A stretch of 64,000 nucleotides of DNA, taken from contig CALKXY010000002.1 in the NCBI GenBank assembly GCA_938003545.1, positions 1 through 64,000 on the forward strand. Direction: 5' to 3'. The stretch is from an uncultured Caulobacterales bacterium (lineage in GTDB: Bacteria > Pseudomonadota > Alphaproteobacteria > Caulobacterales > Maricaulaceae). Below are positions 1 to 4,531 of this stretch, piece after piece. The notes below the pieces were generated by a model that worked only from the letters and a program-made list of their open reading frames with translations, did no database searches and had not been told where the DNA came from. Every line of letters begins with the position of its first letter. Position 1 is the stretch's first letter. The translations under genes were made by a program, and so were the position numbers.

Positions 1-523
1 GTCTTCTCACAACGGGCGACCAAGCGTACGTTGGCTTGTTCGGTGAGGGGCGGCGCTTGTCATTGGATGATGCTGGGTAACGTCAGCAGAGTTGGGTGGC
101 CTATCGCGAGCTGATTGAGCCTAGACTGTTCTGTTCGGCCGATAGTGGAAAAAAGCGTCGTCGCGAGGGTCCCTATGGGGCCGAAAACCACATTGTTATT
201 CCGGTTCCGCCGGGCCCTGAAATACCCTCGCGAACATCCCGTAAAACGGAACATTTTTCCAACGAAGACAACAGAGACTAAGAGATACAGGAAACCTCTA
301 AGAAACAGAGGCTTCCGAGGAAACGCAGAAAATGGAGTAACCCATCCATGCCTCTATGCGTCATCACATGACCTGTTCTTGTGATCCATCAGTAACCTAC
401 TTGTGGATTACAAGGTCGAGCCTTGCAGTGAAGGGGTGAGTGTGGGCTAGCGTCACCCAAGTGCGGGATTACGATGGCGGCATGTGGTTCCGTCTACTTA
501 AAACAACGAATGTAAAAAATACT

Positions 524-548
524 GGGAATTATATACTTAACTAGACAG
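524..548 (+). repeat. Left terminal inverted repeat of IS1595-family element
   Basis: GGGAATTATATACTTAACTAGACAG, matches the right end inverted. Confidence 0.93.
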
Positions 549-549
549 G

Positions 550-747
550 CTAGCGAGCTGTGACCCGAATGGTCACGCATTGGATGGGGTACTCTAAGTC
601 AACCTCAACAGAACCCCTCATATAAGAGCAAGTTACAAAGCCCTCGCGCCTATCAACGACAAGCATGTCAGGGCCACCGCTGTTTAAGGCCACTTTGTCC
701 CCGATAAAGACTCGACTCAATGTCGTTTTTTTACTTACAACGCGCAT
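550..747 (-). CDS. Small DUF2158/YodC-like protein (IS cargo)
   Basis: 65 aa with the motif GDKVALNSGGPDMLVV, typical of the DUF2158 family (G-D-V-x-L-K-S-G-G-P-x-M-T-V). Confidence 0.7.
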   Translation of the reverse strand: MRVVSKKTTLSRVFIGDKVALNSGGPDMLVVDRREGFVTCSYMRGSVEVDLEYPIQCVTIRVTAR

Positions 748-773
748 AGGGTGTGTCTTTTAGGAGTTGGAAA

Positions 774-965
774 ATGGCATTTGAATTAGGTGATGTGGTG
801 CAACTCAAGAGCGGAGGGCCTGTAATGACAGTCACCGCCCTTAGCGAAGGGACAAAAAAAATGGCTCAATGTACTTGGTTCAGTAACAATAAAGAAAGTA
901 GCGGCAACTACCCTGTTGAAGCTCTCGAAGAATTTGAAGCTGGGCCTATGGGATTCATATCCTAG
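774..965 (+). CDS. Small DUF2158/YodC-like protein (IS cargo)
   Basis: MAFELGDVVQLKSGGPVMTVTAL; RBS-like TAGGAG upstream of ATG at 774, so the 753 start in the track is probably too early. Confidence 0.8.
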   Translation: MAFELGDVVQLKSGGPVMTVTALSEGTKKMAQCTWFSNNKESSGNYPVEALEEFEAGPMGFIS

Positions 966-1152
966 ATTGCCCAGGCGAGACCTGCGTAATTGGGGGCTTT
1001 GCGTCACGGTCACCATCTCGCAACGATTGCCAGATAATAAACGGTTCACCGCCAAACATATCAATCATGTTCAACGTGTTGCGCGCCGCTTCTGGCGTGT
1101 AGCCTAGCGCGGTTATGTCCTGAAACGTGGGGTAACCGTGCTTATTGGGCAT
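955..1152 (-). CDS. Small hypothetical protein (IS cargo)
   Basis: 65-aa ORF MPNKHGYPTFQDITALGYTPEAARNTLNMIDMFGG; overlaps the end of the + strand DUF2158 gene. Confidence 0.4.
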   Translation of the reverse strand: MPNKHGYPTFQDITALGYTPEAARNTLNMIDMFGGEPFIIWQSLRDGDRDAKPPITQVSPGQSRI

Positions 1153-1414
1153 GTTAGGACCTTATCTGTGAAGAACCTGCGTCATATCGTTGATAAGAGT
1201 TCTTTTTTTGTTCTCACGTTGAGACTCAGAAGAACAAATCTGAAACACTGAAGAAGCTGATTCTATTTTATGTCGAGGAATTGGTAGGGCGCGGGATGCT
1301 CGAACATCCCGCCACCCTGACACTCACCTGCCGATACAGGAGACTGCGCAGAATGGATTCGTTAGCATTATGCACGTTCAGTAGTCAACCGTCGGCTAAT
1401 ATACGAGGCCACTC

Positions 1415-1711
1415 ATGGCTACTTACGCAATAACCTTCCGCATTTCTGATAAGGGAGACCATGCCGATAGATATCAGTCTTTTCTATCATACGTGACCAC
1501 CGCAAACAAAAGCGAAACACCTTGGGTGGAAACTACCTCATTCCTTCTAATAACCAGTGGTTTGAGCGCAAAACAACTTGCTGACTACCTGATAAATTCA
1601 AAGGTGAATCAGTATAGTGGCGACAAGTTCGCCGTGATTGATGTCGCAAACAAAACGGCGGCTCATTACGGCCTTGAATACCCTTTAGTTTTCAATTCAT
1701 TTTTTGAATGA
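1415..1711 (+). CDS. Cas2-like / SinR-family-like small protein (IS cargo)
   Basis: 98 aa; MATYAITFRIS ... DRYQSFLSYV ... PWVETTSFLLITSGLSAKQLADYL ... DKFAVIDV reads as a beta-alpha-beta-beta-alpha-beta pattern like standalone Cas2-fold proteins. Confidence 0.55.
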   Translation: MATYAITFRISDKGDHADRYQSFLSYVTTANKSETPWVETTSFLLITSGLSAKQLADYLINSKVNQYSGDKFAVIDVANKTAAHYGLEYPLVFNSFFE

Positions 1712-1822
1712 AATACTCGGTGTGAATAGCGACAGGCACGCGCATTAATCGCGCAAACTTCGTAACTATTTTCATTCTGAGCTTTTTCATAAGAACTCGC
1801 CTTCTGGCGGGTTCAACCGCCG

Positions 1823-1954
1823 TTATTTTGGTTTCTGAATCTTCTTATCAGCCGCAAAAAAGATTGCCTTGGCGATCTTCTCCGCAGGTGCGGGGATGGG
1901 CTTAACCTCGTTCTTGACGGGTCGTCCGCGTGGTTTCTTTTCGTTGTCTGACAT
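1823..1954 (-). CDS. 43-aa AT-hook-like miniprotein next to the transposase gene
   Basis: Hand translation MSDNEKKPRGRPVKNEVKPIPAPAEKIAKAIFFAADKKIQKPK*; KPRGRP core; ATG lies 9 bp after the transposase stop on the same strand. Below the length cutoff of the ORF track. Confidence 0.6.
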   Translation of the reverse strand: MSDNEKKPRGRPVKNEVKPIPAPAEKIAKAIFFAADKKIQKPK

Positions 1955-1963
1955 ACGCTAACC

Positions 1964-2929
1964 CTACTTGATTAGGTCCTGATAACGCAAGTGCTTGCCC
2001 ACAAAGCCCTTAGCCAGCAATTCCATCTGAACCATCGTGTCAAAATCGCGGACGTTATGACGGCCTGCAAACTCTGTGATGTAGCGGCTCAAATGCTTGG
2101 CGCTCATCTTGTGATACGTGCCTTTGTAACCGCGCTTTAGCGTAGCCCAAAAGCTCTCAATTCCGTTCGTGTGAGCCATGCCGCGCACATACTCGCCTAT
2201 GGAGTGGTTCACGGTGTGATGGTCGTAGTCAGCGCCTAGGTGCTTATACACCACAGCCGCGTCAGTCATGAGAACAGCATCGTCTTGGCATACGTTGGCG
2301 TAGACCATTGCGGGAGCTTGGTTCTTATGGATATGAGCGACGCGGATTCCACCGTCGCGCTCTAAAATGCCAACAACCGTCTCTTTGTTATTCCATTGCT
2401 TGCGGGCCTTACGGTCTTTCGCATGCATATTCTTGGATTTACCGCCGATATAAGTCTCATCAACCTCAACAACGCCATCCAGCTTTTCACCTTCGTCTTG
2501 ACCATCTAGCCAGCCTTGACGGATTTTCTGCGCAAGCATCCAAGCCGTCTTTTGCGTAACGCCTAAATCACGGTGCAGTTTCATGCTGCTAACGCCCTTT
2601 AGTGACGTAGACATGAGATACATTGCGATAACCCACTTCTGCATCCCGACGCGGCTGGACTGCATAACAGTGCCAGTTTGAACGCTGAAATACTTGCGGC
2701 AATCGCCACAGTGATATGGCATCGGGTTTTCACTTGGGACGGTCTTAGTCTTTAGCGAGCCACAACGCGGGCAATGACGCTCACCTGTAGGCCAGCGCAT
2801 CTCTTCCAGCCATTTACGCGCAGACGCATCATCTGGGAACATTTGAAACAACTGAATAACGCTAAGACCCTCACGGTCAGCGCGTCCCGGTGCTTGGTGA
2901 CGTTGTGTTTTGTTAGTATCGTTTTTCAT
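1964..2929 (-). CDS. IS1595 family transposase (ISXO2-like)
   Basis: Zn ribbon CPRCGS-x16-YHCGDCRKYFSVQTGT and core VVEVDETYIGGKSKNMHAKDRKARK, with C-terminal GIESFWATLKRGYKGTYHK. Confidence 0.97.
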   Translation of the reverse strand: MKNDTNKTQRHQAPGRADREGLSVIQLFQMFPDDASARKWLEEMRWPTGERHCPRCGSLKTKTVPSENPMPYHCGDCRKYFSVQTGTVMQSSRVGMQKWVIAMYLMSTSLKGVSSMKLHRDLGVTQKTAWMLAQKIRQGWLDGQDEGEKLDGVVEVDETYIGGKSKNMHAKDRKARKQWNNKETVVGILERDGGIRVAHIHKNQAPAMVYANVCQDDAVLMTDAAVVYKHLGADYDHHTVNHSIGEYVRGMAHTNGIESFWATLKRGYKGTYHKMSAKHLSRYITEFAGRHNVRDFDTMVQMELLAKGFVGKHLRYQDLIK

Positions 2930-2930
2930 G

Positions 2931-2997
2931 TCTAGTTATATCCCATAAATAGGATATTAGTCAAGAAAAATCGTCTAGTTATGTCCCGAAAGTAGGG
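2931..2997 (-). promoter_or_regulatory. Transposase promoter overlapped by two TIR-like direct repeats
   Basis: Direct repeats TCTAGTTATATCCCATAAATAGGA (2931-2954) and TCTAGTTATGTCCCGAAAGTAGGG (2974-2997). Minus strand -35 TTGACT (2959-2964), 18-bp spacer, -10 TATAAC (2935-2940). Confidence 0.6.
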
Positions 2998-2999
2998 AG

Positions 3000-3662
3000 C
3001 TAACCCGCTAGATTGCTTATCAAACCGTCCAGATTCTGCCGATACCAAAGATATTCTGATACTTGGCTGGCCTTTTCATTATCTAACCCTAACTTTCCAA
3101 CCAGGTTACTGGCCAGCATCGGAATCATAGACGGACCTAAAGTGTTTGCAGCACTCTTATCGTATATTCGATACTTAATAAAATCTCTGTCTGGTCTTTC
3201 AGCTATGTCCCGCTCAATAGTGTCGAACCCGTCTTGAGCCAACGCCATAAACTCATCCGCATCGATTTCTTTGCTGCTCAACTTTTTCTCCAAGTCCTTA
3301 AAAATAACAGCGAAGGAAGCAAAATACCTTTGGAGTTCAGCCCTATCTGTGTGGGAGCGCAAGTCTTTTGACAAATCCACAATCTCTGTGGATTTTCGTT
3401 TGTCTTCCCTAGCAGGGGTCGCGATTAAGTCCAAAACCCCGTAAAACATAAAGGTCAAAACTATCGCGACTGCTAGAGCCGCCGCCTCTGTAATTCTCTC
3501 TGCTAATGGTATCTTTGCGTAAACCAAGACTAGCCAAAAAACCGCCGTCGTCAAAATCGACTTCACGATACTGGACCTATCTGGAACAAACCCGTCCGCC
3601 GTTGAGCGCAGGGAAGTACAAAGGATCTTAAAGTAGTATTTGGGAATATATAGCATGCCCAA
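3000..3662 (-). CDS. Hypothetical membrane protein (IS cargo)
   Basis: 220 aa, two hydrophobic segments (SILTTAVFWLVLVYAKI; ALAVAIVLTFMFYGVLDLI) followed by a charged helical C-terminal region. Confidence 0.65.
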   Translation of the reverse strand: MGMLYIPKYYFKILCTSLRSTADGFVPDRSSIVKSILTTAVFWLVLVYAKIPLAERITEAAALAVAIVLTFMFYGVLDLIATPAREDKRKSTEIVDLSKDLRSHTDRAELQRYFASFAVIFKDLEKKLSSKEIDADEFMALAQDGFDTIERDIAERPDRDFIKYRIYDKSAANTLGPSMIPMLASNLVGKLGLDNEKASQVSEYLWYRQNLDGLISNLAG

Positions 3663-3736
3663 ATTCTTAGCAGGACTCCACTTAGGCGCGCAATGTATTG
3701 ATTTGATAGGGGTGGGGCGAGCAGCCCCTTTAAGGA

Positions 3737-3761
3737 CTGTCTAGTCATGTATATAATTCCC
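3737..3761 (-). repeat. Right terminal inverted repeat of IS1595-family element
   Basis: CTGTCTAGTCATGTATATAATTCCC; reverse complement matches 524-548 at 23/25. Confidence 0.93.
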
Positions 3762-3768
3762 AAAATAC

Positions 3769-3813
3769 TTTACATTTCTTACGGTCTTCCCGTATGTAAA
3801 ACATATTTTACAT
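3769..3813 (+). promoter_or_regulatory. Promoter and operators of the membrane protein/XRE operon
   Basis: TTTACA (3769-3774), 18-bp spacer, TATGTA (3793-3798). Palindrome ATGTAAAA-CATA-TTTTACAT at 3794-3813. A second similar palindrome is split by the IS. Confidence 0.6.
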
Positions 3814-4303: not shown

Positions 4304-4531
4304 ATGGGTGGTAAGAAAACCACGATTACAAATCATATCAAGCGGGTTCGATTGGCTCGCACAGATTTATCGCAGGCGGCTCTAGCTGCTCGAGTTGGTG
4401 CAACGCGACAAACGATCATTGCTGTGGAGGCGCAGAAATATGCGCCATCTCTCGAGCTTGCTTTTCGTCTTGCGCATGTTCTGGATGAGCGCATAGATAT
4501 GTTATTCGTTTTTGCGCCCGAGTGGGATTAA
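4304..4531 (+). CDS. XRE-family transcriptional regulator
   Basis: MGGKKTTITNHIKRVRLARTDLSQAALAARVGATRQTIIAVEAQKYAPSLELAFRLAHVL, a typical HTH-XRE; start ATG 4304 is more likely than 4286. Confidence 0.9.
   Translation: MGGKKTTITNHIKRVRLARTDLSQAALAARVGATRQTIIAVEAQKYAPSLELAFRLAHVLDERIDMLFVFAPEWD

Follow-up and report, generated by a model that had tools for sequence, protein, structure and literature searches.

Gene organization of the window locus

The window was the whole 64,000-nt stretch analysed (positions 1 to 64,000 of contig CALKXY010000002.1, from an uncultured Caulobacterales bacterium). It carried an IS1595-family element inserted just ahead of a two-gene operon, which encoded a DUF2178 membrane protein and a small XRE regulator and had a short-chain dehydrogenase and PurF as neighbours (Table 1). 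The transposase matched the profiles Pfam DDE_Tnp_IS1595 (8e-35) and Zn_ribbon_IS1595 (1e-9) and NCBIfam transpos_IS1595 (6e-50), and the element displayed the features of the IS1595 family: a transposase with a zinc ribbon, terminal inverted repeats, and an 8-bp target duplication. No further copy of its terminal repeats was found anywhere in the window, and no close transposase was found in the plasmids searched. Three passenger genes accompanied the transposase, of which only the DUF2158 gene could be assigned to a family; related elements had wholly different cargo.

Table 1. Coordinates of the IS1595-family element, the split and intact operators, and the downstream operon in the window
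Feature	Position	Strand	Remark
Site 1 left arm ATGTAA (split operator)	510..515	+	Intact orthologous sites as support
Target duplication, left copy, 8 bp AAAATACT, site 1 centre	516..523	+	
IS1595-family element with passenger genes, 3238 bp	524..3761		Single copy in assembly (76% complete)
Left terminal repeat GGGAATTATATACTTAACTAGACAG	524..548	+	
Passenger, DUF2158 small protein	774..965	+	
Passenger, 98-aa ORF, no family	1415..1711	+	
IS1595 transposase, 321 aa	1964..2929	-	
Passenger, 220-aa probable membrane protein, no family	3000..3662	-	
Right terminal repeat, terminating ATTCCC	3737..3761	+	Outward TATAAT at 3752-3757
Target duplication, right copy AAAATACT	3762..3769	+	
Predicted -35 TTTACA inside surviving half of site 1	3769..3774	+	TTTACA or TTGACA within site 1 in 25/30 orthologs
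Site 1 right arm TTACAT (split operator)	3770..3775	+	
Predicted -10 TATGTA overlapping site 2	3793..3798	+	TATGTA within site 2 in 26/30 orthologs
Site 2, intact operator ATGTAAAACATATTTTACAT	3794..3813	+	
DUF2178 membrane protein, 158 aa, four predicted helices	3826..4302	+	
Small XRE regulator, 75 aa, CylR2-like	4304..4531	+	

The element interrupted the palindrome ATGTAA-AAAATACT-TTACAT (site 1), leaving ATGTAA plus AAAATACT on its left and AAAATACT plus TTACAT on its right, and the IS ends and these flanks together formed a 40-nt inverted repeat. With one duplication removed, the rejoined site 1 read ATGTAAAA-AATA-CTTTACAT, one mismatch short of a perfect 8+8 palindrome, and the intact site 2 read ATGTAAAA-CATA-TTTTACAT. 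An earlier note on this DNA had proposed that the IS split one of two matching operators, and the flanks, the duplication, the rejoined palindrome, and the intact twin bore this out. It had further proposed that the insertion kept the -35 of the operon and removed half of the upstream site: both promoter hexamers were correctly placed, TTTACA lay in the surviving half of site 1, and the operon-side IS end (ATTCCC) supplied no second arm, so that site 1, reduced to one arm and the core, was really halved. Neither hexamer passed a sigma-70 scan of the window with a simple consensus, and the promoter call was thus based on conservation of the hexamers in related operons. The window contained one operator match at up to three mismatches, with 0.34 expected by chance; the intact site alone was therefore only mildly unusual, and the weight was carried by the orthologs.

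Weaker repression from the loss of one of two operators, and hence derepression in the window as the earlier note had suggested, is plausible. The net effect is unpredictable from sequence because the IS end contributes an outward TATAAT and site 2 over the -10 is intact, as is the -35; expression of the window operon after the insertion could go either way.

The XRE regulator and its membrane partner

The best solved-structure match of the 75-aa XRE protein was CylR2, over nearly the whole length; this small single-domain HTH_3 protein aligned with CylR2 end to end. Its PADLOC matches were set aside as generic HTH matches. The DUF2178 protein was modelled as four long helices; a fold search with this model against the PDB gave no match, and a full-text literature search for DUF2178 gave no papers. 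The XRE gene sat beside the small membrane-protein gene, and the operon was kept in relatives, its carriers among named ones being Hellea, Robiginitomaculum, and unclassified alphaproteobacterial MAGs.

CylR2 of Enterococcus faecalis, a small HTH repressor with a small membrane protein as its partner, binds the promoter (PMC3709268). The window operon shared with CylR2/CylR1 the combination of a small XRE repressor and a small membrane protein, but differed in four respects: (i) four predicted helices in the DUF2178 partner versus three predicted in CylR1; (ii) two operators, over the -35 and the -10; (iii) a gene order of membrane protein and then XRE; and (iv) absence of the cytolysin genes, with no divergent cytolysin operon and no toxin or cytolysin (lantibiotic) gene found beside the window operon. 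By analogy with CylR1/CylR2 (PMC3709268), we infer that the XRE protein may be a membrane-sensed repressor.

A second small XRE gene, 47% identical, was present in the same genome (L039, G000:C24:72340-72531), where it was accompanied by another membrane protein and, downstream, by a hydrolase-like gene; the window-type operator was not found in that locus. Some operons had two tandem DUF2178-like genes ahead of XRE (L004/L020/L025; G010 and G009).

Conservation of paired operators in related operons

The earlier note had called for a search of orthologous operons for paired palindromes, and such pairs, standing 30-44 bp apart, were present upstream of 30 of the 36 XRE operons (0.01 expected in first-order Markov shuffles), which rules out a chance palindrome and ties the paired operators to the membrane-protein/XRE operon as the note had claimed. 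Four of these 30 pairs had an IS end inside site 1 (G085, G141, G018, and G308). The six operons without a pair were those of the window, G137, and G140, all IS-broken, plus G009, G007, and G133. The consensus was ATGTAAAAAATACTTTACAT for site 1 and ATGTAAAACATATTTTACAT for site 2, and the start-to-start spacing was mostly 36-38, giving a promoter spacing of 16-18 bp between hexamers that were themselves conserved (Table 1). Genus-wide operator matches at up to one mismatch all fell in the sites of these operons except one, in G003 (C2:736219). Paired sites over the -35 and -10 point to a dedicated autoregulatory promoter for a CylR2-like XRE protein, which would itself bind the palindromes.

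The palindrome resembles TGTAAA-N6-TTTACA, the TyrR consensus; a TyrR-type box was set aside, as strong genus-wide matches were almost confined to XRE operons.

Repeated insertion of IS1595-family elements into the operator

The searches covered 1,836 genomes, and an unbiased scan for IS ends was applied to 137 family genomes; most genomes were drafts, and some junctions lay at contig ends. The family search with transposase and XRE identified two near relatives (82-83% identity) that shared contigs with XRE operons, and their junctions, once read, were insertions in the same operator. The reconstructed empty site of G085 was ACGTAA-AAGATACT-TTACAT; G137 had its left junction in site 1 and its right junction in site 2, an arrangement that either two insertions with a subsequent recombination or an insertion plus a deletion would produce. 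A junction pattern scan and the unbiased end scan added G018 (a 421-bp element lacking a transposase), G141, G139 (duplication AACAAATT, read on two contig ends joined together), G140, and G150, and an order-wide scan added two cases in another family, G308 and G059, with transposases only 35-40% identical.

These cases differed in completeness: (i) a target duplication at the palindrome centre in the window genome (G000), G085, G139, G018, and G059; (ii) a single junction at the palindrome centre in G137, G141, and G308; and (iii) one clear IS end only in G140 and G150. The junction register was ATGTAA^N8^TTACAT or a local variant of it in well-resolved cases, and nearly every readable junction was at the same point; in G062 the arm was off by one base. 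The duplicated core of G059 (AGGCTACT) was half G/C, so A/T richness alone fails to explain the target choice. In G034, C3 carried GGTATGTT-TAACAT, with one end only found and no convincing XRE match.

Of the 28 elements found in the unbiased end scan, eight lay at the operator, and a further two adjoined XRE stubs that deletions had left. Even for a 60-bp target, uniform insertion gave a vanishing probability (computed for 9 of 28). The other 18 elements lay away from the operator, among them a truncated transposase in G091 (88% identical), which makes this a preference rather than a strict target specificity; duplications of elements outside the operator were mostly A/T-rich and had no complementary arms.

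The elements had in common their ends and, if present, the transposase, and varied in length, cargo, and orientation. A tree of 30 operons required nine changes to account for the nine interrupted operons, at least seven of these changes being forced by supported branches, and showed no clustering of the interrupted operons (9 changes versus 7.9 in shuffles). By the junctions and this tree, at least seven lineages independently received a related element at the same base of such a site, and the repressor operator thus appears to act as a docking site for IS1595-family elements. This repeated targeting is a larger finding than the derepression proposed for the window.

In L193 (G008:C4:235000-243000) and L202 (G062:C250), an IS end or element adjoined a 3' stub of the XRE gene and the rest of the operon was gone, a pattern suggestive of IS-linked deletions that began at the operator or ran across it.

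Possible half-site mimicry and repair at the IS ends

The operon-side IS end was ATGTCC in G085, G137, G141, and G059, where together with the core and right arm it rebuilt most of the operator. In two eroded copies this end read ATGTAA (G018) and TTGTAA (G150, where the end was identified by eye from its position and a partial terminal-repeat match), and both restored site 1. TGT-type ends were found in 6 of 10 cases at operators versus 1 of 26 elsewhere (p=0.0007, from a partly hand-collected table that ignored kinship and left out the ATGTCC end of G034), and a non-operator copy in G141 also ended in ATGTCC. Because of these features of the table and the G141 copy, mimicry of an operator half-site by the ends is only suggestive. 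The repaired ends of G018 and G150 are a firmer hint of selection on site 1, and in our reading the elements prefer the operator as a target, and its loss would then have been repaired.

A bolder reading, which we hold only tentatively and consider rather doubtful, is that this IS1595 group uses the repressor operator as a quasi attachment site: the terminal ATGTCC would mimic a half-site, and insertion would regenerate a repressor site at one or both ends. If so, the host promoter would stay repressible and transposition would possibly come under control of the host repressor.

Proposed mechanism and rival explanations

We consider it quite probable that the DUF2178-XRE operon is autoregulated and that IS1595-family elements have a preference for its operator, with some ends replacing the lost half-site. 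A CylR2-like XRE dimer would bind the two palindromes, one over the -35 and the other over the -10, and thereby autoregulate the operon, and the four-helix membrane protein probably passes on a signal by which repression is lifted. This operator would be a preferred target for IS1595-family elements with ends ...GTATATAA-N3-CC, which would insert six bases inside either edge of the 20-bp palindrome (ATGTAA^N8^TTACAT), so that the central 8 bp would be duplicated; the promoter would usually be spared because the operon side keeps the core, the right arm, the -35, and the whole of site 2. In place of the lost left arm would stand an IS end that is similar to it (ATGTCC) in some copies and has turned into it (ATGTAA or TTGTAA) in two old ones.

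Within this explanation, target recognition would fall to the transposase or to the bound repressor. We give an even chance to a transposase that alone reads the palindromic arms, through their sequence or their tendency to form a cruciform, with the repressor uninvolved. The junctions keep an exact register that is symmetric about the palindrome, ATGT is common to IS ends and arms, and REP-targeting elements show that transposases are capable of such targeting (PMC1525189); however, transposases only 35-40% identical pick the same class of operator although core and inner arm bases differ, and the non-operator targets lack a palindrome. An XRE-type operator is what stays the same between divergent transposases and between two bacterial families, and this argues for the other version, in which the bound XRE repressor guides the transposase or exposes the target, e.g., through a bend in the operator or contact with the transposase. 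There is precedent for DNA-binding proteins that alter IS target use, as with IS5 and GlpR (PMC4117983), but in that case the bound repressor inhibits insertion, and a bound dimer would cover the cut points; we regard repressor guidance as possible but the less probable of the two.

Operator preference, in either version, was weighed against two further explanations. Random insertion followed by selection, in which operator hits are kept because derepression benefits the host, is improbable: insertion could alter operon expression, and G008 and G062 did lose most of the operon beside the element, but loss of repression would not require one exact base register in a promoter of about 60 bp, G018 and G150 regained the half-site, and random insertions survive, since most elements are kept elsewhere. 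A single ancestral insertion with vertical inheritance and many precise excisions, which would account for the same site everywhere and for the shared orientation of G000 and G085 and of G137 and G141 (the latter also with related ends), is very improbable and was rejected for most cases, given the opposite orientations across genera, the unrelated cargo, lengths from 421 bp to >3 kb, transposases down to 35% identity, the lack of clustering on the operon tree, and the clean intact operators in near relatives, though it could apply within a pair such as G139 and G140.

Comparison with known insertion-sequence systems

Operator-targeting IS1595 elements are, to our knowledge, undescribed, and no description was found in a limited full-text literature search. 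Preference for a palindromic extragenic target is known from the REP-targeting elements ISPsy8, ISPa11, ISPpu9/10, and ISRm19/22 (PMC1525189), which the present elements resembled in that independent copies had entered one target in one register; REPs are many-copy repeats, whereas the target here was a repressor operator at one or two copies per genome, and the elements here belonged to the IS1595 family. ISEc69/Tn7052 and other IS1595-family elements had the same transposase family and 8-bp duplications, but the 23 Tn7052 insertions in E. coli were in different genes at AT-rich sites with no one shared target (PMC7835479), unlike the shared operator target here; ISEc69 in E. coli (PMC7835479) resembled the non-operator elements with their A/T-rich duplications. 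At the E. coli glpFK promoter, the insertion point of IS5 is a CTAA that lies upstream of the operators, and insertion is inhibited by bound GlpR (PMC4117983); that system likewise has an IS hot spot within a promoter region under repressor control, but the target here was the operator centre itself.

Independent same-register insertions into the operator of one repressor amount to a strong and directly testable target preference, in contrast to Tn7052, whose mapped insertions lie at AT-rich sites with no shared target. The natural series of broken, half-mimicked, and repaired operators makes the value of each site to the host readable, and the related operons show that an uncharacterised control by double operators is widespread among small XRE/membrane-protein operons.

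Variant operator layouts in other operons

A similar double-site layout, with altered half-sites, was seen in more distant small-XRE operons whose membrane proteins were of other kinds (L029, L031, and L040). A tandem triple operator, in which a third palindrome overlapped site 1 via a shared ACGT in a 16-bp register, was present in L110 (3952-3981) and in the operons of G070, G134, and G135. In L012/L019 (G009:C79:21500-21972), the DUF2178 gene was split into two overlapping frames and site 1 was absent, with XRE intact. Hydrolase genes in another family (L212-L215, relatives of G059) had paired variant palindromes TGTAAGG-N4-CCTGACA about 36-37 bp apart, one of which contained a perfect TTGACA.
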